From positions 1 to 50,679 of the IMG/VR virus record IMGVR_UViG_3300031578_000055: a stretch of DNA of 50,679 nt. One strand, written 5' to 3'. Below, one piece after another: positions 444 through 43,065 of this stretch; the first letter of the stretch is position 1; each line of letters starts with the position of its first letter. The notes under the pieces were generated by a model, which did no database searches, was not told the DNA's origin, and saw nothing but the letters and a program-made list of their open reading frames with translations. The stretch is from a virus. The translations under genes and the position numbers were made by a program.

Positions 444-453
444 GGAGTAATTT

Positions 454-714
454 ATGAAGTTGGTCTTTAATATAGCAGGGAAATTTAAATCTGATAGAGA
501 TGTTATTATCGTTTCTGAAGATGATGTTCTTGCTGGAAAGATATTTGAAGTTTTCGCTTCTAATGGTGTTCAGTTTGTGGATACTGGTTCGGCTAAACAA
601 CCAGATGCACCAAAACCAAAAAAAGCACCAAAACCAAAAAAAGCACCTGAAGTGAAACCCGAACCTGAACCTGAAGATTTTGAACCAAAGAAAAAGTCTT
701 CAACAAAAAAATAA
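454..714 (+). CDS. Small head-region protein with Pro/Lys-rich tail
   Basis: This 86-residue protein has an ATG start preceded by AAGGAG. Residues 1-45 look folded (MKLVFNIAGKF..., an acidic middle, then FVDTG). The remainder is a charged Pro/Lys/Glu tail with two copies of APKPKK. The tail is encoded by an 18-bp tandem DNA repeat. It sits 10 bp after the previous gene and before a terminator, so it closes a head transcript. Function unknown; similarly placed small proteins in other phages are often head-completion or decoration factors. Confidence 0.7.
   Translation: MKLVFNIAGKFKSDRDVIIVSEDDVLAGKIFEVFASNGVQFVDTGSAKQPDAPKPKKAPKPKKAPEVKPEPEPEDFEPKKKSSTKK
607..642 (+). repeat. Two tandem 18-bp copies inside a gene
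   Basis: GCACCAAAACCAAAAAAA occurs twice head to tail, at 607-624 and 625-642, followed by a third partial GCACC. The repeat encodes APKPKK units. Its unit length is a multiple of three, so copy-number change would lengthen or shorten the protein tail without a frameshift. Confidence 0.9.
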
Positions 715-720
715 AACATT

Positions 721-742
721 AGCCCTTCGGGGCTTTTGTTAT
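721..742 (+). terminator. Intrinsic terminator with UUCG tetraloop
   Basis: AGCCC-TTCG-GGGCT forms a 5-bp stem closed by C(UUCG)G, an extra-stable tetraloop, followed by TTTGTTATTT. It lies directly after the 86-residue gene and before the ribosome site of the connector gene. Confidence 0.7.
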
Positions 743-756
743 TTAAAGAGGATAAA

Positions 757-1500
757 ATGTATAAAGTAAGTCCTAACATAACTAGAAAAATAGATATTGA
801 TGAAACTGCAATTATAACACCGGCTTTAGTTGGTCAACAGTTAAATCTTGCTTCTGGATTAGTAACTAAAAACACTGTTTTAATTCAGCAATATATTGAT
901 ACGGCTATTGAACAAGTTGAAAAATATTCTTGGTTATCTCTTAGACGTACAACTTATGTATCAGAATTCACTTTACCTTCTGATATGTTTTATTCTTTTA
1001 TCAATGGAGATCTTAAATTGAGTCTTGAAAGATCCCCTATTCTTGCTTTAGCAGATATAACAAAAATAGAATATCTAAATAGTTCCGGTGTATATGTTGA
1101 ATTTGACCGGGGAGCTTTAACTTCTGAAGGATTATATTTAAATGTTACAGAAAAAATTGAACAAAGAGATTGGGCTTCGATTTATTTTATTACTTCTGTT
1201 CCTTACGATACAAGAATCAATGCATATAAAATAAAAGTTACATTTGTAGCAGGGTTTACAATAAGTGATGATCCAGTAACAGATATTCCACATAGTTTAA
1301 AAACTGCATTACTTCAGATTGTTGCATATTATTATACTAATCGAGGGGACTGTTCTGAAGCTGGCTGTGATCTTGGAGGATACCCTGTACCATGTTCAGC
1401 AAAGGCAATGATTGATTTATATGCTATTAGCAGAACGGTTATAGGCGGAGAATATACTCCAGCCTCAGATTGTGGTTGTGGATTTGGGTTCGGGTGTTAG
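757..1500 (+). CDS. Head-tail connector (HK97 gp6-like)
   Basis: This 247-residue protein resembles gp6-type head-tail adaptors: helical segments (LIQQYIDTAIEQVEKYSWLSL near residues 45-65), a beta region with PYD and VTFVAGF, then a helix beginning IPHSLKTALLQIVAYYY. Such proteins form a ring under the portal. The ATG at 757 is chosen because AGAGGA precedes it; an in-frame TTG at 736 lies inside the terminator. The C-terminus DCGCGFGFGC is unusually Cys/Gly-rich for the family. Downstream the transcript meets the antisense ibrAB genes. Confidence 0.75.
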   Translation: MYKVSPNITRKIDIDETAIITPALVGQQLNLASGLVTKNTVLIQQYIDTAIEQVEKYSWLSLRRTTYVSEFTLPSDMFYSFINGDLKLSLERSPILALADITKIEYLNSSGVYVEFDRGALTSEGLYLNVTEKIEQRDWASIYFITSVPYDTRINAYKIKVTFVAGFTISDDPVTDIPHSLKTALLQIVAYYYTNRGDCSEAGCDLGGYPVPCSAKAMIDLYAISRTVIGGEYTPASDCGCGFGFGC

Positions 1501-1512
1501 GCTAAAATTACA

Positions 1513-1535
1513 GACTGCATCGGAATGATGCAGTC
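1513..1535. terminator. Hairpin between convergent genes
   Basis: GACTGCATC-GGAAT-GATGCAGTC is a perfect 9-bp stem with a 5-nt loop, lying between the connector gene (plus) and ibrB (minus). On the minus strand it is followed by a T-containing stretch (TGTAATTTT). A bidirectional terminator is the simplest reading. Confidence 0.6.
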
Positions 1536-1547
1536 GGATAAAATGGG

Positions 1548-2174
1548 TTACTCTGCTTCCCATGCCTTTGAAAATTCCTCATTACCAAAAGCTTCCGCAA
1601 GTCCTGTTATTTGTTTGAGTCTCAACACTTCATCAGCATCCATTCCCAACTCTTTTGATATCTTTTTATCATTCCAGTTTCTTCTTGATAGTTCAATAAC
1701 AATATCTGACATAGCATCAATTTTGTGTTTCCCTCTTGCCCGATTATGTCTAATTGTTGAAGCTATTCGGTCATTTCTTCCCTCTCTATTGTTCTTTATT
1801 TTTACTATTGGAAGATATCCATATATTCTTTTTTGTATTTCAGCGCATTCTTTCCCCACTCTATTCCTATGGAATCCGTCAACAACCTCTATTTTATTTT
1901 TTTGATTTTCAGATGTAACTATAGGCTGTGTAAATCCATCCTCTTCTATTGACAATCTTAAAAGTTCCATTTCTGGAGGTGCAACGGCATTAGGGTTGTA
2001 ATCATTTGCAGTAACTTCCTTGTTTTTGACCCATAGAACACAATCAACAGGTTCTCCTTTTAAAGGTGACCTTTCATGTAAATATATTTTTAACCAATTA
2101 ATAATTTCAATCTTTTCATCTATTGAAATATCTGTTTCTAGTTTTTCAATCATATCTTGCGCAATTTTTTTCAT
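1548..2174 (-). CDS. ibrB: IbrB-like ParB-domain protein
   Basis: This 208-residue protein has a ParB/sulfiredoxin-type fold: NDYNPNAVAPPEMELL (residues 57-72), FTQPIVTSE, then the signature DGFHR (99-103). A helical, probably DNA-binding C-terminal half follows (NWNDKKISKELGMDADEVLR). It overlaps the upstream PAPS-reductase-like gene by ATGA, so the two are translationally coupled. This pairing is known in IbrA/IbrB of Escherichia coli prophages, described as regulators of immunoglobulin-binding protein genes; the molecular activity of the pair is not established. It is not a partition ParB: no parA is present. Confidence 0.8.
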   Translation of the reverse strand: MKKIAQDMIEKLETDISIDEKIEIINWLKIYLHERSPLKGEPVDCVLWVKNKEVTANDYNPNAVAPPEMELLRLSIEEDGFTQPIVTSENQKNKIEVVDGFHRNRVGKECAEIQKRIYGYLPIVKIKNNREGRNDRIASTIRHNRARGKHKIDAMSDIVIELSRRNWNDKKISKELGMDADEVLRLKQITGLAEAFGNEEFSKAWEAE

Positions 2175-3409
2175 ATTTTATACCCTTCTTTTCTTCTTTT
2201 CTTTTTTATTCTAGTCATGTATTGCTCATAAAAGAAACCACTTTTTGTCTGTGTGAAATTAAGCCCTTTAGCCCAGTAGTCATTTCTTAATAACATCTTT
2301 GCTATTCTTCTCCATGATGGAGCTTTTCTTTCTGCTTCTTGTTTTTTGTCTACAGTGTCAGGAATACCATTTGAATATCCTCTTTTTTTATACCATTCAA
2401 TAAAAACATATATTTTATTTTTATAATGTTCCATCATTTTTTCTGGCATGCTCTCCATTAACATCATAGAAAAACTTTCCCATGTGTGTCCTTCGGGCAA
2501 AGTAACTTTTTGCTGTCCTGAAATATTGCCTGAATATTGTACAAAATCAGATCCTGAATTAGCGCCATTAACGCGGGCAACAATTTTCGCCCACGATTCA
2601 GGCTCGATTATGTGATATAACCACAAGCCTTTTCTTTGATCATACCCATAAGGCTGACAGATCCTTTGTTGATGAATGGTTAATCCTGCTTTGCTCATTA
2701 GATCATAAAGTCTGTTATATTTCTTCTGGAATTTCCCGTTATATCTCCAGATATCTTGAGTTTTCCAATCATATATCGGGTAGGCATTATATACTGGCAT
2801 ATCCCACAATTTAGTTGTCCATTTATAGTCTGAAAACGTCTTTTTCTTTTTGCTTGCAATTGTCCTGTATCTATTCAAAGATTCGTCAGTTCTAATCCCT
2901 ACAAAGCAAGCGGTTGGCAACCCTTCTGAATACCATTCCCCGAATAATGGAACAAACTCTTCAAATTCCATATCTCTTTTAAAAAATGGGAAGAAAGATT
3001 CGTCTGTTATAGCAAATTCAGGTGGCGTTCTAACCCATATTTCTTTTTTATCTGGATTCCAACATTGCCATTTAGGCTGATAAACAGAAACTGAATTACT
3101 AAGCGCTATTGGAAGAGAAACCCAGAATGGATCTATGAACTCTGAATATTCTTTATACATTTCTAATAAATGTTCTATTGTTATTTTATATTGGGCTTCC
3201 AGGTCAACGAATAAAACTCCTATTTTCTTTTTTCTTTTTATTGCTTCATCCATTACTAGATGAAGCATTACAGAAGAGTCTTTCCCCCCAGAAAATGATA
3301 AATATATTTTAGGGAAATATTCAAATATGATCTCTATTCTTTTTTTTGCTTCTGTATATACATCAGATTCCAAATATTTCTTACCCACAAATAGCCCCCA
3401 CAAACTCAT
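2171..3409 (-). CDS. ibrA: IbrA-like PAPS-reductase-family protein (DUF3440)
   Basis: This 412-residue protein has the PP-loop SFSGGKDSS (residues 38-46) that binds the adenine-nucleotide phosphate in PAPS reductases and N-type ATP pyrophosphatases. Further family-like features are VGIRTDESLNR, YPIYDWKTQDIWRY and RICQPYG. The ATG at 3409 is chosen because GAGAAG lies 6-7 nt upstream; an in-frame start at 3484 would add a hydrophobic stretch read out of the previous gene. It overlaps the upstream gene by 29 nt and ibrB by 4 nt. The substrate is unknown; DndC is a relative that acts in DNA sulfur modification, but no dnd genes are visible. Confidence 0.82.
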   Translation of the reverse strand: MSLWGLFVGKKYLESDVYTEAKKRIEIIFEYFPKIYLSFSGGKDSSVMLHLVMDEAIKRKKKIGVLFVDLEAQYKITIEHLLEMYKEYSEFIDPFWVSLPIALSNSVSVYQPKWQCWNPDKKEIWVRTPPEFAITDESFFPFFKRDMEFEEFVPLFGEWYSEGLPTACFVGIRTDESLNRYRTIASKKKKTFSDYKWTTKLWDMPVYNAYPIYDWKTQDIWRYNGKFQKKYNRLYDLMSKAGLTIHQQRICQPYGYDQRKGLWLYHIIEPESWAKIVARVNGANSGSDFVQYSGNISGQQKVTLPEGHTWESFSMMLMESMPEKMMEHYKNKIYVFIEWYKKRGYSNGIPDTVDKKQEAERKAPSWRRIAKMLLRNDYWAKGLNFTQTKSGFFYEQYMTRIKKKRRKEGYKI

Positions 3410-3737
3410 AAAAAGCTTCTCTAGTTTTAGCCCCTGAGAAGTGGCTTTTTGATGTTCTAAAATCAGAATCAATAACAGACTCAAAAAAACATGTCTTGAA
3501 TACCCATTCGTTGTTTACAGCATCATAATATAATTTATCAAGAAACGAATGCGCTTCGTTATTATTTTGGCTCCACAATTCGCAATACAATCTTACGTGC
3601 CCAAAATTAGACCAAACCCAGGATTCTTGTATTGCTTTTAGATCCTTTATTATATCTTGCATATTTACTAAATTTTCAGCCACACAATACGGAATATCTA
3701 AATTTTTGGACGCAAATTTTATAACAGCGTTTTCCAT
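3381..3737 (-). CDS. Unknown 118-residue protein of the ibrAB cassette
   Basis: I recognise no family. The protein is acidic, with several Trp and Cys residues (QESWVWSNFGHVRLYCELW in the middle). It has an ATG start with GGAGAGA upstream. A C(UCCG)G hairpin lies immediately before that ribosome site, the same module seen before two other genes. It overlaps ibrA by 29 nt and is transcribed with it from the minus-strand promoter at 4010-4038. Confidence 0.7.
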   Translation of the reverse strand: MENAVIKFASKNLDIPYCVAENLVNMQDIIKDLKAIQESWVWSNFGHVRLYCELWSQNNNEAHSFLDKLYYDAVNNEWVFKTCFFESVIDSDFRTSKSHFSGAKTREAFYEFVGAICG

Positions 3738-3750
3738 GATTCTCTCCTTT

Positions 3751-3766
3751 AGCCTCCGGAGAGGCT
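3751..3766 (-). promoter_or_regulatory. UNCG hairpin directly upstream of a ribosome site
   Basis: On the minus strand AGCCTC-TCCG-GAGGCT forms a 6-bp stem closed by C(UCCG)G, then AAAGGAGAG and the ATG at 3737. The same arrangement recurs at 40309-40324 and 46668-46681 on the plus strand. It is not followed by a U-run, so a terminator is unlikely. mRNA stabilisation or control of ribosome access is more plausible. Confidence 0.7.
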
Positions 3767-3790
3767 GTTTGCATAATCTCTATCCATTGA

Positions 3791-3985
3791 TTATTCGTAA
3801 TGTTTATTTCCCGGATCTATTATATTTTTTTCTGCTTCTAATAGGTCTGTGTATGATGCATTAACAAATGTACCATTATATTCTTGGTTGTTTATCTCAA
3901 AATGTTTTCTAGCTGAAGATCTTCTGTATGCTCCAAATATTTCACCATTCATTTTAAAAACTTTTACTATCATTTTCTTTGTCAT
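3791..3985 (-). CDS. Unknown 64-residue basic protein
   Basis: First gene of the antisense cassette, with AAAGGAG 6-7 nt before its ATG. The sequence begins MTKKMIVKVFKMNGEIFGAY and has the basic stretch RRSSARKHF. I do not recognise a family. As the first product of a promoter with a palindromic operator it could be an autoregulator, but no helix-turn-helix or ribbon-helix-helix is clear. Confidence 0.6.
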   Translation of the reverse strand: MTKKMIVKVFKMNGEIFGAYRRSSARKHFEINNQEYNGTFVNASYTDLLEAEKNIIDPGNKHYE

Positions 3986-4009
3986 CTTTTATCTCCTTTA
4001 CCTATTTTA

Positions 4010-4038
4010 AATATAACGCTATAGCGTTAAGAAGTCAA
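4010..4038 (-). promoter_or_regulatory. Promoter with palindromic operator in spacer (copy 1)
   Basis: On the minus strand TTGACT (4038-4033), a 17-nt spacer and TATATT (4015-4010) form a sigma70 promoter. The spacer contains TAACGCTATAGCGTTA (4014-4029), a perfect 16-bp palindrome. It drives the 64-residue gene, the 118-residue gene and ibrAB. The same promoter-operator arrangement occurs on the plus strand at 46441-46469. Confidence 0.8.
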
Positions 4039-4081
4039 GTATATAATTGAAAATAAATAAAAAAGATGATATTATTTTTAT

Positions 4082-4522
4082 ATGGCTAAAAATAGATGTG
4101 TAAGAACGCAATTTAATAAAGAAATTCTTTGTGCTGGAACAATGAATGATTATCTACTGATTTTATCCAGAGCAATAACAGGAACAGAACCAGGGCAATC
4201 AATACAGGCAAGTGAAACTTTCACTCAGATCGTTGATTATGCCGGATATCTGGAAGCATCAAAACCAACTCAGAGATGGAACGGCGTTTCAATGGAAGAC
4301 CAGAGTGCACCTAATTACACTCATGTTTGTTATATTCCGTTTGATCCAGTTACATATAAATTGGATGTTGGAAAATTGTTTGTTAAAAAACAGGGTGACA
4401 CCTCAGATCTGGATCGGTTATTTAAATTGAAAAGTATTAATAATTTTGGAGAACAGGATGAATACCTGCAATTACGATTAGCTGAAACTGGTTTTGCTGA
4501 ACTTGATGGATCTCATGGCTGA
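4082..4522 (+). CDS. Head-tail joining / head closure protein
   Basis: This 146-residue protein lies between the gp6-like connector and an HK97-gp10-like protein, where phages encode the head-closure (stopper) protein. Visible features are an N-terminal CVRTQFNKEI..CAGTM segment, then beta-rich stretches (YTHVCYIPFDP, KLDVGKLFVK) as in head-tail joining proteins. The start is ATG at 4082 with only weak Shine-Dalgarno signal. It overlaps the next gene by 8 nt. Assignment relies more on position than on sequence. Confidence 0.6.
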   Translation: MAKNRCVRTQFNKEILCAGTMNDYLLILSRAITGTEPGQSIQASETFTQIVDYAGYLEASKPTQRWNGVSMEDQSAPNYTHVCYIPFDPVTYKLDVGKLFVKKQGDTSDLDRLFKLKSINNFGEQDEYLQLRLAETGFAELDGSHG

Positions 4523-4928
4523 TCCTAGAGGATATCATTACCACCGGGATATAATGGTCGGTAGAGAGCTATTAAAACATAAAGATAATATAAGAAATGC
4601 TCTTAGGATTCATGGAAAAGAAGTCAAAACAGAACTGGAAAAAGTTGTTTCGACCGGAACAAGAACAGGAAGAGTTTATACATATAGAGGCCGGAAATAT
4701 ACAGCATCAGCAGAAGGGGAACCACCAGCTTTAAGATCCGGGAGGCTTGCAAAAAGTTTTTCCTATAAATCAAGGGCTATGGAACTTGTAATCGGCAATA
4801 GTGCAAAATCAGATAAAGGATTTAATTATCCTGGGTTTTTAGAAAAAGAAATGAATAGACCATATTTTTTAGTTACAATCAATTCACTTCATTCAAGATT
4901 ACAAACAGATTTACAGAGTTTATATTAG
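4515..4928 (+). CDS. HK97 gp10-like tail completion protein
   Basis: This 137-residue basic protein (start MADPRGYHYHRD) has a helical N-terminus, then TYRGRKYTASAEGEPPALRSGRLAKSF compressed around the typical P-x-x-R-S-G-x-L motif of gp10-like proteins, and ends LSRLQTDL-like. The family links tail terminator and connector. The ATG at 4515 is preferred because it overlaps the previous stop (ATGGCTGA); another ATG at 4506 is possible. It is followed by a 38-bp gap to the tail terminator. Confidence 0.7.
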   Translation: MADPRGYHYHRDIMVGRELLKHKDNIRNALRIHGKEVKTELEKVVSTGTRTGRVYTYRGRKYTASAEGEPPALRSGRLAKSFSYKSRAMELVIGNSAKSDKGFNYPGFLEKEMNRPYFLVTINSLHSRLQTDLQSLY

Positions 4929-4966
4929 AAAGTTGTATTTTTATTTATATTACTGTAAAATAACTT

Positions 4967-6070
4967 ATGAGTTTTTTTAGTCCATCAGCAATTTTAGATC
5001 ATTTAATGGAATATATTCCTAGATTATCAGACCGTTTTTCAAATAACGCTCTTGTTTCCGCTGCTATTATAGCCGGAACTCCGCAAACTTTAAGAGTTAC
5101 AGATAATTTACACGGACTATCTGCAGGTGGTGAAGTTGTTTTAATTGGTGGGAAAACAAATAATCCTATAACAGCGGTTTCTTTAATAGTGGATCCCATC
5201 GGTGGTGATGTATTACGGTTTACAACAAATAAAGATCATAACCTTACTCTTAATTATACATTAACAGTAGATCTTTCAGGATTTACTAATCCCATATTCA
5301 ACGGTACTTTTACAGTTATTTCGGTTCCTTCCAGAAATCTATTTGAAATTTCAGGATCAACTTTACCGGTATTAAATGGAAATGAAGTTCTTGTCGAAGA
5401 ATGGGAAGTAGGAATAAACGGATTGTTTTTTATTGATTCAATTGTTGATGTAAATACTTACGATATTTTATTAACCGGGAAACCAGAATTTGAACCACAA
5501 ACAGTTCCTATTTTAAAAAGATCTTCTATTTTTAAAATGAGTATTGCTATTGATGCCGAACGAGCCAGATCTTTATATACACCTCAACCAAATGACAAAT
5601 CTGTATTGTGGTTATTCGTAATAATGGGAGATGCATCAGCTTCTAAAGATAGAAAAGTTTTGTCTGATGCAAACCAAACAAATACAGCCGGTCAGGGTGA
5701 TAGAACATTAATGATAAATACATTTTCCGTATTAGTATTTTTTCCAACATCCACCGAAACAGCCGGGGCGTTGGCTTCAGATTTAGCATGGAATGAAATA
5801 TATAAAGTTCTACTTGCCGTAGGTGCTGGAATAAAATTTGATGATTTCGGGACTTCCCCTTATAGAACATCTTTAATAGATCACGGTACGGCTATTTATA
5901 CAAATGCTTTTTATGCTCATGCTTATACTTTTGAATATTGTTATCAAGTCACCCAGGAAGAACAATTCCTTACACAATTTATTGAGTCTGTACCGTTTCG
6001 AGATAATGCTATTTCAAGCAATGAAGAAGATGAAGGATCTAACATCGATCTTGATGAAGAGCCAACTTGA
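4967..6070 (+). CDS. Tail terminator-like protein with inserted beta domain
   Basis: This 367-residue protein starts the tail module. Residues about 190-345 (AIDAERARSLYTPQ, ...MINTFSVLVFFPTSTETAGALASD, ...AFYAHAYTFEYCYQV) look like a tail terminator of contractile phages. Residues about 40-165 are an insertion with HGLSAGGEVVLIGG and NPIFNGTFTVISVPS, a beta motif of the form HGL-G-V-NGTF-V common in phage structural proteins. It also appears, altered, in the gp47-like and 479-residue proteins here. The C-terminus is strongly acidic. Confidence 0.6.
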   Translation: MSFFSPSAILDHLMEYIPRLSDRFSNNALVSAAIIAGTPQTLRVTDNLHGLSAGGEVVLIGGKTNNPITAVSLIVDPIGGDVLRFTTNKDHNLTLNYTLTVDLSGFTNPIFNGTFTVISVPSRNLFEISGSTLPVLNGNEVLVEEWEVGINGLFFIDSIVDVNTYDILLTGKPEFEPQTVPILKRSSIFKMSIAIDAERARSLYTPQPNDKSVLWLFVIMGDASASKDRKVLSDANQTNTAGQGDRTLMINTFSVLVFFPTSTETAGALASDLAWNEIYKVLLAVGAGIKFDDFGTSPYRTSLIDHGTAIYTNAFYAHAYTFEYCYQVTQEEQFLTQFIESVPFRDNAISSNEEDEGSNIDLDEEPT

Positions 6071-6096
6071 TAATATGTGAGTGTAGGGTATATAAT
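6067..6096 (+). promoter_or_regulatory. Candidate promoter for sheath and tube genes
   Basis: TTGATA (6067-6072), an 18-nt spacer and TATAAT (6091-6096) lie at the end of the tail terminator gene, 24 nt before the ATG of the next gene. Confidence 0.5.
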
Positions 6097-6119
6097 TACG
6101 GTAACTAATAGGAGTCATA

Positions 6120-6305
6120 ATGTCAGATAAAAAGGAATACAGGGTGACAAAACCTTGGGGTAAACACAAAGTAGGTGATCTGCTCCCTAATTCGAGGGAA
6201 ATTCGCCGGAAAATTCAAGAGGGTGGATGCGTTGAAAAAATGGCTCCTGAAACCTCGAAAAATAAAATGCAGAAAGACACTGCTAAAAATAAAGGAGATG
6301 AATAA
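6120..6305 (+). CDS. Small basic protein upstream of tail sheath
   Basis: This 61-residue protein starts at an ATG after TAGGAG. It begins MSDKKEYRVTKPWGKHKVGDLL and has a Lys-rich C-terminus. A short protein of this kind often precedes the sheath gene in Mu-like phages. Its stop overlaps the sheath start as TAATG, so translation is coupled. Function unknown. Confidence 0.65.
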   Translation: MSDKKEYRVTKPWGKHKVGDLLPNSREIRRKIQEGGCVEKMAPETSKNKMQKDTAKNKGDE

Positions 6306-7876
6306 TGAGTTCAACATCCCTTCCTAGAATTAATGGTCAACTTTTGGCAGCCGTTGGAGCTGTTGGACCCGAACCATTTAGAATGTTGATTACAGGACAG
6401 ACCGGTACTGCTGGAACTGCTGTTTCTGGTGCTACTACAAAAGATGTAGAAAGCCTAACAAATCTTGAAGTTACAACTTTATTTGGTGTAAACTCAGATT
6501 TAACAAACAGAATATTTAAAGCCCGTGACAAATGCCAGGGAAGATATTCAATATGGGTAATTTCTTTAGCTGCTGGAGCAGGAACCGCTGCAAGTGCTGC
6601 TCTGGCTTATGCAGGAACTGCTACTGAAGCCCGAAACATGGTTGTAAGACCTATTTCACAGAAACAATTTTCTTTTACAATCCCGGTTGCGATTGGTGAT
6701 ACTGCAAATGATGTGGCTGTTGCCGTTAAAGCAAAAATTGATGCTCTTGCGGATAATTTTCCTGCTACAAATGCATTAGTAACTGACACTCTAACATTAA
6801 CATCTGTTGATCTTGGAACAATTGGAAATAAATATGTTGTTGAGCATATAAGCATTCCTGCTGGAATAACAGTTAATACAAGTGTTGGAACTGATAAAGT
6901 TCAATTTACATCTGGTGCAACTGATCCTTCGTTGGTCGGATTATTTGACAATGTTGCTGCAACAAGATTTCATACAATTTTATATCCCTGGGAATCTGAT
7001 TTTCAGGAAGTTGAAGATTTCTTAAATCCTAGAAATGTTATTAATAATACATTTCTACACGGCGTTGCAATGATCGGATTTGATGATACTGAAGCAAATA
7101 TCAAAGCAAAAGTGAATGGAACAACTCCTCTTAATTCTCAGAACTTATTTTTCATGGGAAATAGAGTTGCTTCCGGTGTTGCTGCGTTTGTTGAACCTTC
7201 TGATTGGAGAACTGTCGAATTTGCAGCAATTGAAGGATTACGATTAACGGATGATGTTCCTATCGGATCTTATATTACAACATCGGCTCCTCTTGATGCT
7301 ATCGGTGGTCCTGGAAGTGCTTCTCTTGCTTATTATAATACTCCATTAGCTCAAACATCGGCTGTAGATCCTGATCAGTTATTTGATGAAACAGAACAGG
7401 TAAATCTTGGTGATGATGGATACACAATAATTGGTGTTAATACATCTGTTACTAATGCGATTATGGCAGAGGTTATCAGTACATATAAATTTAATATTCT
7501 TGGAAATCCTGATGTAAGTTTTAAATATTTAAATTATATCAGAACTTCATATCTTGCTTTTGAAATATTTTTCAGAACTCTTAAAGCGGATTATTCACAG
7601 AGCAGATTAACCGATGGAGAGTTAGTACCTGGAAGAGCGATTGCGAACGTTGGGTCTATAAAAGCAAATTACTCAAAAATATATAAACTATTGTCTTCTC
7701 CTGAATATGCTCTCACGCAAGCAGGAGCAGCAGCAGAATCATATTTCTTTAAGAATCTTACTCTTTCAGTTGATGTTTCTACCGGAACTGTTACGTCTGC
7801 AAATCCGTTGGCAATAGTAACACAAATTAGAGAATTTATAGTAACAATGCAAATTGCATTTACAGTTGGAGGGTAA
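6305..7876 (+). CDS. Tail sheath protein (Mu gpL-like)
   Basis: This 523-residue protein is followed 7 nt later by the tail tube gene, the normal sheath-tube pair of contractile tails. Typical features are an Ala/Gly/Thr-rich N-terminal region, an inserted middle domain, then RFHTILYPWESD, FLHGVAMIGFDD, LFFMGN, a segment with AAIEGLRLTDDVPIGSYI, and a C-terminal domain with FKYLNYIRTSYLAFEIFFR and VTMQIAFTVGG. The length matches Mu-like sheaths (about 500). The protein contracts to drive the tube into the envelope. Confidence 0.9.
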   Translation: MSSTSLPRINGQLLAAVGAVGPEPFRMLITGQTGTAGTAVSGATTKDVESLTNLEVTTLFGVNSDLTNRIFKARDKCQGRYSIWVISLAAGAGTAASAALAYAGTATEARNMVVRPISQKQFSFTIPVAIGDTANDVAVAVKAKIDALADNFPATNALVTDTLTLTSVDLGTIGNKYVVEHISIPAGITVNTSVGTDKVQFTSGATDPSLVGLFDNVAATRFHTILYPWESDFQEVEDFLNPRNVINNTFLHGVAMIGFDDTEANIKAKVNGTTPLNSQNLFFMGNRVASGVAAFVEPSDWRTVEFAAIEGLRLTDDVPIGSYITTSAPLDAIGGPGSASLAYYNTPLAQTSAVDPDQLFDETEQVNLGDDGYTIIGVNTSVTNAIMAEVISTYKFNILGNPDVSFKYLNYIRTSYLAFEIFFRTLKADYSQSRLTDGELVPGRAIANVGSIKANYSKIYKLLSSPEYALTQAGAAAESYFFKNLTLSVDVSTGTVTSANPLAIVTQIREFIVTMQIAFTVGG

Positions 7877-7882
7877 TAAAAT

Positions 7883-8272
7883 ATGAATGCTTTATCAGTA
7901 CCAGGGGTAAGTGTAAACAATGTCCCTATATTTATAGTTCCAAACACTTTTTCTTTTAAGATGGGAAAAGGTGAAACAAAAGTACGATCTGCTTCGGCTG
8001 GTGGTGGTGCTGCTTCATCAGTACATACCGAAGATGCAGAAGGTAAAATCGGAGAAATGAAATTCGAAATGTATGTCACTGAAGAAACATTAGAACTATT
8101 CAGTGCATGGAAAAAGAATCTCGGAATCAATGCTGTAACGGCTGAACAACCGGCTTCAACTCCATTGTCTGGCAGCCATATGTCATGCACTACAGATTCA
8201 GAGTTTAAAGCTACGGCCGATGGAACTGTTGAAATGATTTTTCAAGGGGATCCATTATCTGATAACTTTTAA
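7883..8272 (+). CDS. Tail tube protein (Mu gpM-like)
   Basis: This 129-residue protein begins MNALSVPGVSVNNVPIFIVP, includes FSFKMGKGETKVRSASAGG and ends with a beta segment (DGTVEMIFQGDPLSDNF). Size, position right after the sheath and the G-x-G-x-x-x-V-R region fit Mu gpM-type tube proteins, whose hexamers stack to form the DNA conduit. A terminator follows immediately. Confidence 0.85.
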   Translation: MNALSVPGVSVNNVPIFIVPNTFSFKMGKGETKVRSASAGGGAASSVHTEDAEGKIGEMKFEMYVTEETLELFSAWKKNLGINAVTAEQPASTPLSGSHMSCTTDSEFKATADGTVEMIFQGDPLSDNF

Positions 8273-8275
8273 TAT

Positions 8276-8304
8276 TATCCGGGTATAATGCCCGGATATT
8301 TTTT
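8276..8304 (+). terminator. Intrinsic terminator after tail tube
   Basis: TATCCGGG-TATAATG-CCCGGATA makes an 8-bp stem followed by TTTTTT. It would attenuate transcription between the abundant sheath/tube genes and the downstream fibre-like gene. Confidence 0.85.
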
Positions 8305-8337
8305 ACTCATGGATCGAACAAATTCGTGAGGTGAAAA

Positions 8338-8589
8338 ATGGCAACATCAACAATACAGATACCAAAAAATACATGGACTTTAATCTCAGAAGTTTCAGTG
8401 AGATTTCAAGTTCAAGGTCAAACCCCATTAATTATAATTGAATCTGTTGCACTTCCAACTGATCTTGATATTCGGAAAGTGGCTTTTGCAGGTGGAATGT
8501 ATACATTTATAAAAGTTGATGGTGATTTTTATGCTTATTCTAAAGATACAAATAATGAAATATCAATAGAACCAGTGGAGGCTACATAA
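8338..8589 (+). CDS. Small beta-rich structural protein
   Basis: This 83-residue protein has GAGGTG before its ATG. The sequence (MATSTIQIPKNTWTLISEV..., ...FIKVDGDFYAYSKD) suggests a compact beta fold. Its stop overlaps the next start as TAATG with GGAGG upstream, so it is probably co-produced with the 479-residue protein, perhaps as its partner or chaperone. No family recognised. Confidence 0.6.
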   Translation: MATSTIQIPKNTWTLISEVSVRFQVQGQTPLIIIESVALPTDLDIRKVAFAGGMYTFIKVDGDFYAYSKDTNNEISIEPVEAT

Positions 8590-10028
8590 TGGGATTTTTT
8601 GAAGGGAATGAATCCTCTGGAATTGGAAGTGTACCTAAATCTGGAAATGTTGTTTATGTGAATGAAGAAAAAGATTTTGGAACTGTAACGGCTGGTGTAA
8701 AAATAGATACTATTCCAGATACGACTTTTGTTTTAAACTCTCCTGTAGTTCAGACCCTACCTTTTGTTGTACCAACAGGATCTTGTTTTCAACTGCTAAC
8801 AACAAATAGAGTATTAAATACATTGACATATACAAATGCTGTTGATGCTCAATTTCAAGGGATTAATAGCTGTGTTATTATATTTGATGTAGTTTTAAAT
8901 GGTAACACTACAGGAACGTTATTTGATTTAACAGGTGGATATATATCATTAAAATTCCCTGATTTTAATAGATATGATAATATAGGAACATTAGATTCCT
9001 TAGAATCTATTTATTGTCCCGGTGTTTTATTTGATGTTATTGCTGGAGGAGTTAATTTAATCGATTGCGTTTCTAGCACTTTCACTGGATGTTTTATAAT
9101 ATCTTTAGACGGCAATACGTTCTCTTTTTTTAATATTTCTGGTGCTTCATCAGGTGATATTCAGATTTCTACAGCAATTTGTGATAATGACGAGTTTTCA
9201 TCTTTTGTTTATGTTGATCCAGCAACATATCCGAATGATCACACTGTCAGTATAACCGCTTGTAATATTACAATAGCAGATAATTTCTTTGGTGCAGGAT
9301 CGATAATAGAAACTGATATAAGAATGATTTTAGCAGCAAATAAGGGCAATCAGGACAGTGTAGTTTCAGCAGGTGCTTTTTTAGTAAGCAATGCACTTGT
9401 AACAGACATTCCAGCAGTAAATTCTTTTGTAATCATAAATGGTACTACATGGACAGGTGATGCAGAGAGCAGAATTCTTGTTAATAGTGATGGAGTTTCG
9501 GATTATTTGGATCTAAGAAAAACATCTTTAACACTTGATGGTGATGCTTCAATGGAGCCGACATTGGCGACTAAGGATTTAACCACCAGATTTGCTCAAA
9601 TAGATCCTGAAAGATTTACAGTTACATTTACAAATGCAACTAATTTAATAAATGAGGCAGGGACTGCACTATCTAATAACGATACTATAATGTTTAAAGA
9701 TACCGTCGGAACTTTGCCCACTGGTTTACGTGCCGATGTTATGTATTTTGTTATTAATAAATTAACTAATTCTTTTCAAGTTTCTTATACATTAGGAGGT
9801 GCAGCGGTTGCATTTACAACAGATGGGACACCAGTTAATTCATATGGACTAACAAGTTTTCACGGAAGTTCTCCTCAGAATGTTATTGCTGCAAATGCAG
9901 CAAGAAGCCTGACCCCTCAAGCTTTAAAATGTGCATGTCCTGGAAGTAAAATATTTTTAATGGTATCAAACAAAACTGATGATGTTAATATTTTAGTCAA
10001 CGAAGCATATTATAGAATTTTAGGATAA
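8589..10028 (+). CDS. Beta-helix-like fibre or decoration protein
   Basis: This 479-residue protein begins with VVYVNEEKDFGT. Residues about 30-300 show periodic short beta strands with Asn, Cys and Ile ladders (SVCIIFDV-type steps), consistent with a right-handed beta-helix. Residues about 350-420 carry TNLINEAGTALSNNDTIMF and LPTGLRADVMYFVINKLT, the GLxxxxxYFVxN motif common in phage fibre-associated domains. A fibre or baseplate decoration is likely. Its place between tube and lysis genes is unusual for a receptor-binding protein. Confidence 0.5.
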   Translation: MGFFEGNESSGIGSVPKSGNVVYVNEEKDFGTVTAGVKIDTIPDTTFVLNSPVVQTLPFVVPTGSCFQLLTTNRVLNTLTYTNAVDAQFQGINSCVIIFDVVLNGNTTGTLFDLTGGYISLKFPDFNRYDNIGTLDSLESIYCPGVLFDVIAGGVNLIDCVSSTFTGCFIISLDGNTFSFFNISGASSGDIQISTAICDNDEFSSFVYVDPATYPNDHTVSITACNITIADNFFGAGSIIETDIRMILAANKGNQDSVVSAGAFLVSNALVTDIPAVNSFVIINGTTWTGDAESRILVNSDGVSDYLDLRKTSLTLDGDASMEPTLATKDLTTRFAQIDPERFTVTFTNATNLINEAGTALSNNDTIMFKDTVGTLPTGLRADVMYFVINKLTNSFQVSYTLGGAAVAFTTDGTPVNSYGLTSFHGSSPQNVIAANAARSLTPQALKCACPGSKIFLMVSNKTDDVNILVNEAYYRILG

Positions 10029-37834: not shown

Positions 37835-39070
37835 ATGGGAAAAGACAACAGGCGTTCTGTTGACACTAAATTCTGGACTGATCCAGAAGTTGAGCAACTG
37901 ACAAAGAATGCCACTTATTTATTTAATTCACTATTAACATTCCCTGAAAATAATATGGCTGGAACCTATGAAATATCAGAAGGGAAAATGTCTTATTATA
38001 CTAAGATGAATAAAAATGAAATAAATGAAGCTTTTAAAGAATTGGAATATAAAAATAAAGTGCTTAGATTTAAAACATGGGTATCAATTAAAAATCATAT
38101 AAAAAATCAAAAACTTAACGGAGGAATGGCTATTTCTGTAGTTAAAGATTTATGTGATTGTCCTAATCCTGTTAAATTATGGTTGTTTTATCAGGCAAAT
38201 TCAGAGACTTTAGAGCCTTGGTTCCCTAAGCTTTTATTTAATGTCAATGCATATTTAGGGGAACAGAAAAAAAGATATGCAAATAGGATAGTAAAAGATA
38301 ACCCTAAGATAACCGTTATCGAAGCATTATCTAACTATGAGTTTAACCCTATGACAGAAGACAAGCTTTTGCAGATAATGGTTCAAAACCTCCCTTTAGA
38401 CACAAAAGAGCTTTCAAATCTTAACAGTATGATAACCCTTATCGAATGGTTAGATAACCCTTCGATGAATATAAAGAATAAAAGGGAATTAGAAAAGGAA
38501 TTAGAAGATATAAAAGGAAAAGGGAATAGTAAATTGATTTCGGATAACGTTGTATCCGAAGAGACAAAAATTTCTCCCTCTCCCTTCTCCGGTTTTATTC
38601 CTGAATCTAAAAAACAAAATCCTGATGCTACGATGTTTGAATCTAAAGATATTCTTTCAGAACGGATTACAACAGCCATAGAACATTGGAACACTAAGCC
38701 TAATCTTCAGAAATATAAATATAATGTTTTTAATATGAGAAATGTTGCTGATGTAAAAACTCAGTTTGATGTTTTCTCATTAGATGAAATATTGGGAGCT
38801 ATAAATAATTTATCAAAATATATAGATCGTGATGAAATGGTTTCAAAACAATTTGATAGATTTATTAAAAGTTCTTTGGATAGATGGGTTGATGATGCTA
38901 TGCCTTGGAAGCGATATGAAACCGAAGCTGACAAATCACCAAATCAAATTCAATTAGAAAAGTATGAGGAATATATAAGAACCTGTACAAGTGATTTATC
39001 AGAAGAACAATTAGCTCCAACATATGAGAAAATCAGAAAGGTTAAGAAATTGATCGAGGAGGAAGGATGA
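37835..39070 (+). CDS. Replication initiator-like protein (DnaD/phage replisome organizer type)
   Basis: This 411-residue protein starts with a winged-helix-like domain: RSVDTKFWTDPEVEQLT, then TYLFNSLLTFPENNMAGTYE and VLRFKTWVSIKNHIKNQK, as in phage replisome organizers. A variable, charged middle region contains iteron-like DNA repeats. The C-terminal part (ITTAIEHWNTKPNLQKYKYN, DEILGAINNLSKYI) may recruit host helicase or loader. No helicase or polymerase gene is visible in the window, so it must use host or outside enzymes. It overlaps the next gene by ATGA. Confidence 0.7.
   Translation: MGKDNRRSVDTKFWTDPEVEQLTKNATYLFNSLLTFPENNMAGTYEISEGKMSYYTKMNKNEINEAFKELEYKNKVLRFKTWVSIKNHIKNQKLNGGMAISVVKDLCDCPNPVKLWLFYQANSETLEPWFPKLLFNVNAYLGEQKKRYANRIVKDNPKITVIEALSNYEFNPMTEDKLLQIMVQNLPLDTKELSNLNSMITLIEWLDNPSMNIKNKRELEKELEDIKGKGNSKLISDNVVSEETKISPSPFSGFIPESKKQNPDATMFESKDILSERITTAIEHWNTKPNLQKYKYNVFNMRNVADVKTQFDVFSLDEILGAINNLSKYIDRDEMVSKQFDRFIKSSLDRWVDDAMPWKRYETEADKSPNQIQLEKYEEYIRTCTSDLSEEQLAPTYEKIRKVKKLIEEEG
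38297..38558 (+). repeat. Iteron-like repeats, candidate replication origin
   Basis: GATAACCCT at 38297, GATAACCGTTATCG at 38308-38321, GATAACCCTTATCG at 38431-38444 and GATAACCCTTCG at 38453-38464. A dyad, TTCGGATA-ACGTTG-TATCCGAA, spans about 38539-38560. All lie in the variable middle of the initiator gene, an arrangement like the origin inside lambda gene O. Confidence 0.55.
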
Positions 39071-40512: not shown

Positions 40513-40645
40513 TTTAAGAATGCCCGAACCGCTTAAAGGCAGGGGGAAAAAAGAAGCTGCATTTTATGGGATAAATATGTCTCAATTTATTGTTCAGGCT
40601 ATAAATGAAAAACTTGAAAAAATAGATATGCGTATAACAGACTAA
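40487..40645 (+). CDS. Arc-like ribbon-helix-helix protein
   Basis: This 52-residue protein reads EKREQFNLRMPEPLKGRGKK then YGINMSQFIVQAINEKLEK, the strand, helix, turn, helix order of Arc/CopG repressors with the conserved N-x-S/M-x-F-I region. GGAG lies before the ATG. It is one of two such proteins here and a candidate ligand for the palindromic operators. A possible attC-like repeat begins within its last codons. Confidence 0.7.
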   Translation: MKEKREQFNLRMPEPLKGRGKKEAAFYGINMSQFIVQAINEKLEKIDMRITD

Positions 40646-40675
40646 GATGTGCAATGCGGATAATAGTAGTTATGT
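40632..40675 (+). repeat. attC-like site 0 (weak), left edge of cassette array
   Basis: GTATAAC (40632-40638) and GTTATGT (40669-40675) resemble inverted R boxes (R-Y-Y-Y-A-A-C and G-T-T-R-R-R-Y), 44 bp in all, with ACTA/TAGT inside. The usual AAC before GTT is missing. It lies 17 nt before the first cassette gene, as later sites do. Confidence 0.35.
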
Positions 40676-40691
40676 GGAAAAGGGGGCTAAG

Positions 40692-41042
40692 ATGGAATGG
40701 ATTAGTGTTGAAAAAGAACTTCCGATTGAAGAAGATTATTATTTAGTATCGAGTAATTATGGAATAGTTGTTCGTAGTTTTAATGTTTATCATAATTGCT
40801 GGGACGATGAACAGGCAGATGACTATTGGTGCGATGCAGTAGGTGGGAATGTTACACACTGGATGCCACTACCACCGCCCCCTTCATCACATAACAGCGA
40901 ATATAAGCAATGCGAGTTTTGCCACGATACAAGGTTGTTGTGTAGTGGTGCCGGAGAGTGTGACCATGATGGTAGAGACTGTAGCGAAAGTGATAATTGT
41001 GGTGAATATACACCGGCACTATGTAAGCATTGTACAAATTAG
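40692..41042 (+). CDS. DUF551-like protein with Cys-rich tail (cassette gene 1)
   Basis: This 116-residue protein begins MEWISVEKELPIEEDYYLV and has VTHWMPLPPPP, hallmarks of DUF551 phage proteins. A tail of about eight Cys follows (QCEFCHDTRLLC, CEHD-like, ALCKHC). GGGGG lies before the ATG at 40692; an in-frame ATG at 40647 lacks a good site. It is more G+C-rich than phage neighbours. An attC-like repeat begins at its 3' end, as in integron cassettes. Confidence 0.65.
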   Translation: MEWISVEKELPIEEDYYLVSSNYGIVVRSFNVYHNCWDDEQADDYWCDAVGGNVTHWMPLPPPPSSHNSEYKQCEFCHDTRLLCSGAGECDHDGRDCSESDNCGEYTPALCKHCTN

Positions 41043-41072
41043 CGCACTGCATATATTCGCAGAACGTTATAC
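41032..41072 (+). repeat. attC-like site A
   Basis: Ends in CGCAGAAC-GTTATAC (R' box 41066-41072). A partial R'' candidate GTACAAA lies at 41032-41038, and CTGC-ATATATTC-GCAG forms an inner stem. It overlaps the stop codon of gene 1 and lies 27 nt before gene 2. Confidence 0.5.
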
Positions 41073-41098
41073 ACAATTTGTGTCTAAAGGAGAATATA

Positions 41099-41263
41099 AT
41101 GAAAGTTGATTTTAAACAGAAGGCTACATTGGTAATTACACCGGAAAATGAAATAGAAAGTTATGCACTTAGAAAATGGCATGAAGGCTATGTTTCAATA
41201 GAGCCTTCTGAAGAATGTTTATGTGTAGAGTCAATTACAATTGACGACACAAACAATGTATAA
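41099..41263 (+). CDS. 54-residue protein (cassette gene 2)
   Basis: AAAGGAG precedes the ATG. It begins MKVDFKQKATLVITPENEIE and contains EECLCVESITIDD. No family recognised. The stop codon overlaps the R'' box of the next attC-like site, common in integron cassettes. Confidence 0.6.
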   Translation: MKVDFKQKATLVITPENEIESYALRKWHEGYVSIEPSEECLCVESITIDDTNNV

Positions 41264-41315
41264 CAGGGTTTATATGTCATTGATTACAACATCATATAAG
41301 CCGGAAACGTTATAG
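41258..41315 (+). repeat. attC-like site B (most complete)
   Basis: 58 bp. R'' GTATAAC (41258-41264) and R' GTTATAG (41309-41315) are inverted at six of seven positions. Inside, TTATATG and CATATAA form L''/L' arms, with GG/CC next to them and one extra T on one arm, like an extrahelical base. Length and box order match integron attC sites. Confidence 0.65.
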
Positions 41316-41331
41316 GCAATTGGAGGGTTAA

Positions 41332-41538
41332 ATGAGAGGAAAAGGTTTACTCGAATGGGAATGGGTTGCACATATTGAATATTCTGATTATGCCGATTCT
41401 TTGTTACATTTTAGTAGTTTAGATGCTACTGATATATTATCTGCAATAGCACATGTTTATCGGCATTGTCGGGAAAGTGGAGTTTTTGAAGTTATTTCTT
41501 TAACGCAACTGCCTATAACAGCAGATACACGGAAATAA
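41332..41538 (+). CDS. 68-residue protein (cassette gene 3)
   Basis: TGGAGGG lies before the ATG, 17 nt after R' of site B. The protein begins MRGKGLLEWEWVAHIEYSDY and has LDATDILSAIAHVYRHCRES. No family recognised. The stop overlaps the next attC-like site. Confidence 0.6.
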   Translation: MRGKGLLEWEWVAHIEYSDYADSLLHFSSLDATDILSAIAHVYRHCRESGVFEVISLTQLPITADTRK

Positions 41539-41571
41539 CAAGTGACTGCATATAAACCCGAAACGTTATGT
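41533..41571 (+). repeat. attC-like site C
   Basis: AAATAAC (41533-41539) and GTTATGT (41565-41571) are inverted at six of seven positions. CATATAA and CCGAAAC lie before R'. An alternative R'' (CTATAAC, 41513-41519) would give 59 bp, inside the gene. Confidence 0.5.
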
Positions 41572-41591
41572 ACAATATTTTGGAGGAGTAA

Positions 41592-41834
41592 ATGGACAAT
41601 AGGCATATGGATATTATATATGATGCATTGTGTAATGACGATGACCCTGTTTTTTCTAGCGAGACTGTTACAGAAATGTATAATTATATCAAAGAATTGG
41701 AAGCTAAAATAAACCTGCTCCAAAATATTATTCATAACAACAGTTTAACAAAATCATGCAGCGGTTGTTGGGGGGAGAATAAGATTTGTTATGGTTGTAT
41801 AGATTTTAGTGGTTACAAAAGCATGACTTCGTAA
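41592..41834 (+). CDS. 80-residue Cys-containing protein (cassette gene 4)
   Basis: TTTTGGAGGAG precedes the ATG. It begins MDNRHMDIIYDALCNDDDPV, has a helical stretch (EMYNYIKELEAKINLLQNII), then CSGCWGENKICYGC, which could bind zinc. It resembles cassette gene 5 in layout (coiled coil ending LQN-I-I/H-N, then Cys pairs), so the two may be related. Confidence 0.6.
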   Translation: MDNRHMDIIYDALCNDDDPVFSSETVTEMYNYIKELEAKINLLQNIIHNNSLTKSCSGCWGENKICYGCIDFSGYKSMTS

Positions 41835-41852
41835 AACTGCGAAACGTTATGT
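41831..41852 (+). repeat. attC-like site D (right half)
   Basis: CTGCGAAAC-GTTATGT (R' 41846-41852). The segment GTTATGTACAATATTTTGGAGG after it is almost the same as after site C. No convincing R''; GTAAAAC at 41831-41837 is the nearest. Confidence 0.45.
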
Positions 41853-41872
41853 ACAATATTTTGGAGGATTAA

Positions 41873-42097
41873 ATGAGTAGAAAACCAATAGAATCTTTTC
41901 ATATTGCAGGGATAAAATATGCCTGTTGTCAAGAATCAGATGTTAGAGAGCTTGAAGCTGAACTTGACCAGCTCCAAAACACTATACATAACATCGATTA
42001 TTCGAAATGTCCAGATTGTGAAGGGTACGGGCAAAGCATAAAAGGCTGGACGATAATGCCCTGTAAAAAGTGTAAGGGTACGGGACAAATCGTATAA
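41873..42097 (+). CDS. 74-residue DnaJ-type zinc-finger-like protein (cassette gene 5)
   Basis: TTGGAGG lies before the ATG. It begins MSRKPIESFHIAGIKYACCQ, then a helix (VRELEAELDQLQNTIHNI), then CPDCEGYGQ and CKKCKGTGQ, two CxxCxGxG-type motifs as in DnaJ zinc centres. It shares layout with cassette gene 4. Confidence 0.65.
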   Translation: MSRKPIESFHIAGIKYACCQESDVRELEAELDQLQNTIHNIDYSKCPDCEGYGQSIKGWTIMPCKKCKGTGQIV

Positions 42098-42113
42098 TCG
42101 CGAAACGTTAGGC
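42092..42113 (+). repeat. attC-like site E (right half)
   Basis: GTATAAT, then CGCGAAAC-GTTAGGC (R' 42107-42113), which matches the G-T-T-R-R-R-Y consensus exactly. It overlaps the stop of gene 5. The left half is not recognisable. Confidence 0.5.
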
Positions 42114-42129
42114 GAAATTAGGAGTCAGA

Positions 42130-42219
42130 CATTGTTTAGTAGCATGGACGGCTGGTAAAATCTATTGTAGTGGATGCTGTCAATATATCAAAACTTCGCA
42201 TAATCGCAGAACGTTATGA
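42130..42219 (+). pseudogene. Degenerate cassette ORF without a start codon
   Basis: AGGAG lies where a ribosome site is expected, and a frame stays open from 42130 to TGA 42217-42219 with CLVAWTAGKIYCSGCCQYI, a Cys pattern like other cassette products. No ATG, GTG or TTG begins it. The cassette is only about 100 bp long. Confidence 0.4.
42198..42219 (+). repeat. attC-like site F (right half)
   Basis: GCATAAT, then CGCAGAAC-GTTATGA (R' 42213-42219). It lies 17 nt before cassette gene 7. Confidence 0.45.
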
Positions 42220-42235
42220 ATAATAAGAGGATCAA

Positions 42236-42430
42236 ATGGTAGACAACGTTAAAGATATAATTAAAGCGTATTGTTCAGTGCATTATCCCGGAGCAGATGG
42301 ATTATGTAATGATGGTTGTGGATGTTCTTTTGACGATTTGCAACCGTGCAGTAGTTCATGTATGCATTGTGTTCCAGCAAAATGGAATGGAGAAGAAGAG
42401 ATTTTTATAGAAATAGACAAATATCAATAA
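42236..42430 (+). CDS. 64-residue Cys-rich protein (last cassette gene)
   Basis: AAGAGGA lies before the ATG. It begins MVDNVKDIIKAYCSVHYPGA and contains CNDGCGCSFDD and CSSSCMHC, eight Cys in all. No attC-like site follows its stop, so either the array ends here or that site was lost. No family recognised. Confidence 0.6.
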   Translation: MVDNVKDIIKAYCSVHYPGADGLCNDGCGCSFDDLQPCSSSCMHCVPAKWNGEEEIFIEIDKYQ

Positions 42431-42460
42431 ATGAGTATATTATTAACATAAGGATGAACA

Positions 42461-42541
42461 ATGGATACCATAAACCCGATTAAAAACCCAATTTTGATAA
42501 AGTTGACAATTACCCGTACAAGGGGTAATATCATTTTATGA
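42461..42541 (+). CDS. 26-residue ORF across the promoter of the next gene
   Basis: AAGGA lies before an ATG, and the stop overlaps the endonuclease start as ATGA. It encodes MDTINPIKNPILIKLTITRT plus a few residues. A strong promoter lies inside it, so the ORF may be fortuitous. Confidence 0.3.
   Translation: MDTINPIKNPILIKLTITRTRGNIIL
42503..42531 (+). promoter_or_regulatory. Promoter with palindromic operator in spacer (different operator)
   Basis: TTGACA (42503-42508), a 17-nt spacer and TAATAT (42526-42531). ATTACCC (42509-42515) and GGGTAAT (42523-42529) are perfect inverted repeats within the spacer and -10. Seven nt separate the -10 from the ATG at 42538, so transcripts may be leaderless or nearly so for the endonuclease gene. 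Confidence 0.65.
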
Positions 42542-43065
42542 ATAAAATATGGAAAGAAATTAGGGGATATGATGGGTTTTATAAGATTTCTAATTGTGGA
42601 GATGTATATAATTCGAAATGGGATCGTCCAGTAAAGCAACATATAAACAAATCAAACGGATATTATGAAGTCTGCTTATACAAGAAGCAAAAACGAAAAC
42701 ACCATACAATACATAGATTAGTTGCTCTTCATTTTGTTGGTATTTTATCTGGCCGTGAATTTGTAAATCATAAAGATTCTGATAAACATAACAATGATTC
42801 AACAAACCTTGAATGGGTTACTAAGTCTGAGAATGGTATTCACGCAGGAAAAGCAGGATTACTTTCTGTTAATCTAAGAAAAAATGTAAATCAATTAACC
42901 AAAGAAGGGAATTTTATCAAAACACATATTAGCCTTTCTTCTGCAGCTAGAGAATTAAACCTGCAAAAAACAAATATATCATCTTGTTGTTATGGTAAAT
43001 CAAAAACATGTGGAGGATTCTTATGGGAATTCACTCAAAAGGATATAAACCGTGATCAATATTAA
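42538..43065 (+). CDS. HNH homing endonuclease (NUMOD4, HNH_3, NUMOD1)
   Basis: This 175-residue protein has NUMOD4 (IWKEIRGYDGFYKISNCGDV), an HNH nuclease (HRLVALHFVG, then FVNHKDSDKHNNDSTNLEWV), and a C-terminal NUMOD1 DNA-binding repeat (SLSSAARELNLQKTNISSCC). Free-standing enzymes of this kind spread by cutting alleles that lack them. It lies between the cassette array and the ParB-methyltransferase gene and overlaps the latter by 14 nt. Confidence 0.9.
   Translation: MNKIWKEIRGYDGFYKISNCGDVYNSKWDRPVKQHINKSNGYYEVCLYKKQKRKHHTIHRLVALHFVGILSGREFVNHKDSDKHNNDSTNLEWVTKSENGIHAGKAGLLSVNLRKNVNQLTKEGNFIKTHISLSSAARELNLQKTNISSCCYGKSKTCGGFLWEFTQKDINRDQY

Follow-up and report, generated by a model that had tools for sequence, protein, structure and literature searches.

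A probable integron-type gene-cassette array with spirochaete-type hairpin sites in a tailed-phage genome

The window analysed here is the whole IMG/VR virus record IMGVR_UViG_3300031578_000055, of 50,679 bases, which has annotated tailed-phage genes for the tail sheath, tape measure, baseplate, terminase, and portal. We found a tandem array of short open reading frames (ORFs) on the plus strand, flanked on one side by replication-type genes, including that of a DnaD-like protein (37835-39070), and on the other by genes for an HNH endonuclease, a ParB/methyltransferase protein, and the large terminase. The HNH gene (42538-43065, plus strand; PF13392, NUMOD4) follows the array and is part of the flank, not a cassette. 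Rfam gave no match in the window, and no DNA similarity to known phages was found. Searches for phage relatives with TerL, the methyltransferase, and the portal protein returned only a 4.3-kb TerL contig and distant methyltransferases; since no close relative with another cassette set was found, cassette mobility within the phage was not seen. Elsewhere in the window, a minus-strand gene (2171-3484) encodes a PAPS-reductase/DndC-like protein (PHROG 2302, E = 2e-83, with a weak match to DndC), a kind of auxiliary gene common in phages.

The array contains seven GTT boxes between short same-strand ORFs, at 40669, 41066, 41309, 41565, 41846, 42107, and 42213, all at the positions given in the original prediction. 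The last six carry a 32-nt repeat, with six copies in the array and none elsewhere in the record, and share the motif L'-(G)RAAC-GTTA, as had been predicted; within the record this motif is unique to the array. The box at 40669 lacks the left part and the motif, yet is matched by the R'' of cassette A itself, and hence marks the left boundary of the array, where no attI was identified. Start codons lie 16-26 nt downstream of the boxes, close to the predicted 17-27 nt. The predicted overlap of stop codons with the repeats was seen in cassettes B, D, and E, where the stops fall inside R'' or L'.

Cassette A (40669-41065) begins with the R' box GTTATGT and contains an ORF (40692-41042) for a DUF551 protein (E = 4.5e-12) with a Cys-rich tail. 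In cassette B (41066-41308), the stop codon of the ORF (41099-41263) lies within R'', and cassette C (41309-41564) holds an ORF at 41332-41538. Cassette D (41565-41845) encodes a protein with a CxxC tail (41592-41834), and cassette E (41846-42106) a DnaJ-type, CxxC zinc-finger-like protein (41873-42097), which matched PF00684 with E = 2.4e-5, under the cut-off of the family. Cassette F (42107-42212) is a 106-bp remnant without a clear ORF or R'', and cassette G (42213-42450) has a Cys-rich ORF (42236-42430) and a missing or degraded right-hand site. Downstream of cassette G, at 42436-42480 and just before the HNH gene, TATTATTAACATAA and CATAAACCCGAT resemble worn R'' and L' remnants. The phage cassette proteins had no match in the fetched arrays or in the defence library, and the DUF551 cassette protein had none among phages.

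In a cassette, the first bases from the box should pair with the R'' inside the same cassette. We scored this complementarity using the other cassettes and 1000 shuffles as controls. In A-E, 19-24 nt from the box (24 nt in D) were complementary to 40877-40895, 41246-41264, 41499-41519, 41715-41738, and 41972-41992 of their own cassettes, respectively, with scores of 25-36 versus 8-20 against other cassettes; the exceptions to the low cross-scores were the sister cassettes D and E with each other, and G against D (26). The own score was reached by 0 (A), 3 (B), 0 (C), 0 (D), and 1 (E) of the 1000 shuffles, and the L''/L' pairing was likewise cassette-specific in A, D, and E. Cassettes A-E, five of the seven, are thus genuine, with a 5' end reverse-complementary to their own R'' and not to those of their neighbours. 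Each cassette starts at a GTT box, contains an ORF preceded by its own ribosome-binding site, and ends in an imperfect hairpin site, its two ends being matched to each other. Own-end complementarity was not significant for F (91/1000 shuffles) and G (290/1000); the site at 42213 and the last cassette are degenerate, and the state of cassettes F and G suggests a partial loss of mobility in the array.

The attC-like sites lie on the plus strand. Site A (40889-41072; fold z = -2.5) consists of R'' (40889-40895), L'' (40897-40914), L' (41043-41060), and R' (41066-41072). Site B (41258-41315; 58 bp) pairs over its short loop, and site C (41513-41571) has kept R'' with a degenerate L''. Sites D (41732-41852; 121 bp; fold z = -2.55) and E (41986-42113; 128 bp) overlap ORFs. 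In A, D, and E, R''/L'' sit 100-180 nt upstream, within ORFs, a placement absent from the original prediction, making these sites long, about 120-185 bp. The half site F (42185-42219) has L' and R' alone. In sites A-E, R'' (RYYYAAC) pairs with the R' (GTTRRRY) of its own cassette; the boxes at 41309 and 42213 end in G and A, not Y. The paired R''/R' and L''/L' predicted for site B were confirmed, but the apparent extrahelical base was not: the best stems in B, D, and E pair bulge-free, so that the extrahelical base of the canonical attC L stem is absent. The bottom strands fold into hairpins, a check proposed at the outset, with z values of about -1.8 to -2.55 that are modest owing to AT richness and long loops. 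An attC-geometry filter gave three matches in the window, all inside the array, and none in 20 shuffled windows; a free scan with loose spacers was not specific.

Because the paired 5' end contains the Shine-Dalgarno sequence, an mRNA hairpin could hide it, and TATAAT-like L' motifs stand upstream of every gene. The repeats might on these grounds be regulatory elements (promoter, ribosome-binding, or mRNA-structure) between ordinary phage genes, with no role in recombination. We consider this highly improbable, as the motif is confined to the array, with no copy of the repeat between other genes of the record, where the original prediction would have looked for a promoter role. Moreover, the pairing is cassette-specific, runs through both R'' and L'', and is common to chromosomal arrays that adjoin a recombinase gene, described below.

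A scan of 84,980 species genomes for the L'-R' motif TATAANCGCGAAACGTTA gave 47 loci, among which a Spirochaetales MAG (L051) held the sole attC-type array. Most of the 47 loci shared one repeated coding context, which from the encoded peptide we take to be uvrA-like, and were discarded as chance matches. The viral matches L157-L159 were located in coding DNA. From relatives of the L051 genome we drew 14 clean sites, which have R''-A-L''...L'-(G)RAAC-R' in common. Both stems covary in these sites: 92% of cells were paired and 32 cells changed on both sides, and none of 500 shuffles was as high. A covariance model, R1, was built from 13 of them, all chromosomal sites of spirochaetes, and searched against both strands of the window without filtering. 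The five best-scoring matches were the array sites, all on the plus strand: B (38.4 bits, E = 1.6e-6), A (33.5 bits, E = 2e-5), E (25.3 bits, E = 0.0017), D (19.8 bits), and C (17.3 bits, E = 0.12), scores from a model that is not fully blind, because its training sites were reached via a motif from the window. The end-complementarity pattern played no part in selecting the training sites. The sixth-best match scored 12.6 bits (E = 1.5); half site F and cassette G had no R1 match. The covariance-model check proposed earlier thus returned matches at the array sites with this spirochaete-built model.

As in a CALIN, the attC-like sites are clustered on one strand, with five R1 matches within 1.25 kb on the plus strand (three at E < 0.01), and the record, which may be incomplete, has no match to the integron integrase and recombinase profiles TIGR02249 and PF00589, in agreement with the predicted integrase-less cluster. 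Membership of the canonical integron family is not supported, owing to the missing bulge and the missing IntI.

Several stretches of the phage sites are shared with spirochaete genomes. Twenty nt of R''-L'' in site A are identical in L166/L193, ACATAACAGCGAATATAAGC of the same site is identical in G206, and its R' side is 27/28 identical to G010. In site B, TATAACAGGGTTTATATG is identical in G086 and in L098/L136; the L'-R' of site C is 27/28 identical to L098/L136 and to G086, and half site F is 26/28 identical to L181/L182 and to G010. The genomes with exact or near-exact matches of 18-28 nt to the phage sites are G086, G206, G010, and G044. The site type points to a possible spirochaete host; TerL had no match in 148 spirochaete genomes, which therefore gave no prophage evidence for the host. 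Several spirochaete sites of different genomes also have a palindromic loop element, AAAAAGTATGTTATACTTTTYC, in common (L097 2040-2180, L099 2050-2190, L051 3316-3470), perhaps a promoter or a small insertion.

R1 sites were present in 42 of the 148 spirochaete genomes, with up to 16 per genome. A second model, R2, was built as the canonical model from Treponema-like arrays and recovered canonical arrays in a further genome (L139). R2 found nothing significant in the window (best within the array 8.3 bits, E = 9.9) and no match in the spirochaete R1-type arrays, and no R1 site appeared in twelve regions surrounding canonical IntI (best match 17.5 bits, E = 0.42). The two site classes are thus mutually exclusive, with the phage in the second; one genome (G006) has both systems. 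Judged by sequence, the phage sites fall into this second spirochaete class, with stems of about 22 nt, an L stem without a bulged base, and a 1/5-nt spacer, the last seen in the R1 alignments of sites A-E. The link to Treponema in the original prediction therefore stands as a spirochaete affinity, but not as the known Treponema/IntI attC type.

The two classes also differ in their cassette ends. Own-end complementarity in 62 spirochaete R1 cassettes was about 0.6-0.9 out to nt 21 and then at background, versus background beyond nt 7 in 14 canonical Treponema cassettes. The phage cassettes A-E have the long form, reaching nt 13-21. At nt 10, complementarity in the 62 R1 cassettes dropped to 0.03, a near-obligatory mismatch, because of A at the 5' end (60/62) and G on the paired 3' flank (52/62), with A against G in 50 of the 62; the same A/G occurs in four of the five phage cassettes. 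This pair forms a G-T wobble in the bottom strand and an A-C mismatch in the top strand, an asymmetry that could favour the bottom strand. Furthermore, R1-type L stems mostly pair bulge-free, whereas the canonical Treponema sites all need a bulged base.

These results bear on whether the array is an ordinary canonical CALIN, that is, a set of Treponema-type integron cassettes moved by canonical IntI in trans. Canonical IntI is common in these spirochaetes (over cut-off in 43 of 148 genomes) and commoner in genomes with R1 sites (24/42 versus 24/106, p = 9e-5), the R boxes agree with GTTRRRY, and IntI1 recombines phage-borne attC sites of other kinds (PMC9892861). We nevertheless regard this reading as unlikely, given the failure of R2 in the phage array and in R1-type arrays, the lack of R1 sites at the twelve IntI regions, and the bulge-free L stem.

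The R1 arrays adjoin a different gene, for a shorter, IntI-related tyrosine recombinase without the IntI-specific insertion. At least 12 of 34 such insert-less genes had an R1 site less than 5 kb away in their contig (295-4971 bases), compared with none of 45 canonical IntI genes among the R1 sites listed. Insert-less recombinases head the spirochaete R1 arrays at L135 15613-17269, L142 15801-17369, L178 3019-5775, and L196 4796-7961. In L135, 95 bp separate the recombinase gene from the start of the first cassette, which lies in an attI-like place and has an own-end match of 18/22. This neighbourhood suggests that the insert-less recombinase is the partner of R1-type sites. An integron-like subgroup of simple tyrosine recombinases has been described (Smyshlyaev et al. 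2021, PMC8138268), in the accessible part of which insert-less members are not tied to cassette arrays, unlike the array-adjoining members found here. No such gene adjoins the phage array, and no tyrosine recombinase was detected anywhere in the phage record.

A recombinase tree with two Xer proteins as outgroup placed all canonical IntI, class 1 included, in one clade with four viral relatives (100/100). The sister of this clade (98/91) was an insert-less clade containing the array-linked recombinase of G001, and the other array-linked recombinases branched further out. Several branches are long, which makes an ancestral reading of the insert-less recombinases tentative. The joint absence of the IntI insert and the bulge fits, and does not prove, a simpler recognition mode.

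Similar arrays occur in other viral contigs. The 169.7-kb contig IMGVR_UViG_3300043411_001575 (L231) carries an insert-less recombinase and ten R1-like sites at 1-8852, with cassettes containing several DNA methyltransferases, a PAPS reductase-like gene, and a DUF551-like gene; every ORF is opposite to the site orientation known from spirochaetes. Four further viral contigs (L018, L026, L028, L035) have the 1/5-spacer site geometry with ORFs opposite to the sites, and the L018 array contig also has a terminase gene. These contigs, together with the level G+C throughout the array region (0.337-0.345) and the phage-type DUF551 cassette gene, make it hard to believe that a host array fragment was joined onto the phage contig during assembly, even though the record is of metagenome type without read data and no relative has the same junction.

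The ORFs of cassettes A, D, and E extend over the R''/L'' half of the site, and the hairpin loop is coding (40889-41042, 41732-41834, and 41986-42097). The encoded tails are Cys-rich, beginning HNSEYKQCEFC in A, HNNSLTKSCSGC in D, and HNIDYSKCPDC in E, and follow the pattern HNx(4-5)C-x2-C. In cassette A, the end of the DUF551 domain roughly coincides with the start of R'', and the DUF551-like gene of L231 stops at the same point; the recombination site therefore seems, from these sequences, to extend the protein by a zinc-finger-like, Cys-rich tail.

Taken together, the locus is very likely a real integron-type cassette array in a phage. We give a probability of roughly 0.8 to the fuller reading, drawn from sequence comparison, of an integron-type mobile cassette array in a tailed phage that has no recombinase of its own, with an insert-less host enzyme as the proposed actor. 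The phage DNA would expose single strands on entry and during replication, and a host-supplied insert-less recombinase would cut G|TT in the folded bottom strand. Cassettes could then be inserted, excised, and shuffled between the host array and the phage. Their genes may be expressed by read-through from phage transcription, which would suffice because each cassette has its own Shine-Dalgarno sequence and start. The genes carried, for a DUF551 protein and for small Cys-rich proteins, would be accessory genes of the phage.

Phage carriage itself, which the original prediction held to be unusual, is not new, since clusters of attC sites in phages have been published: Qi et al. 2023 (PMC9892861) reported 17 CALINs, some containing methyltransferase genes, among 10,705 phages, and IntI1 recombination for five of six tested sites. 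The present array resembles these in its tandem same-strand cassettes, tailed-phage setting, and lack of an integrase gene. It differs in that the published CALINs were detected with canonical attC models and their tested sites were recombined by IntI1, whereas the present sites belong to a bulge-less, long-stem spirochaete class unrecognised by the canonical Treponema model. Wu et al. 2013 (PMC3607928) described chromosomal Treponema integrons, which are likewise spirochaete small-cassette arrays with GTT boxes and folding sites, but their sites have a protruding base and about 7 nt of end complementarity beside a canonical IntI, whereas the present class lacks the protruding base and has end complementarity of about 22 nt beside an insert-less recombinase. 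That spirochaetes possess attC types peculiar to them has been described (PMC8352920). In the open papers searched, whose coverage is incomplete, we found no mention of insert-less recombinases paired with arrays. The site class, the recombinase partner, and the Cys-rich tails encoded in three sites appear to be new.

According to PMC9668308 and PMC8138268, integron recombination requires the IntI-specific domain, which also serves as a defining mark of integrons. We see an even chance that spirochaetes and some large phages share a second integron-like system without this domain, whose recombinases include the nearest relatives of all IntI, whose hairpins are longer and bulge-less, and whose phage-carried cassettes in some cases have a site-encoded zinc-finger-like tail; such a system could preserve a pre-IntI state. 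If the arrays do pair with insert-less recombinases, cassette capture arose, or persists, without the IntI-specific domain, and current searches miss a class of arrays. With both the insert and the bulged base absent, the role of the IntI-specific domain becomes directly testable, and a phage with such cassettes would be a vehicle for them between hosts.
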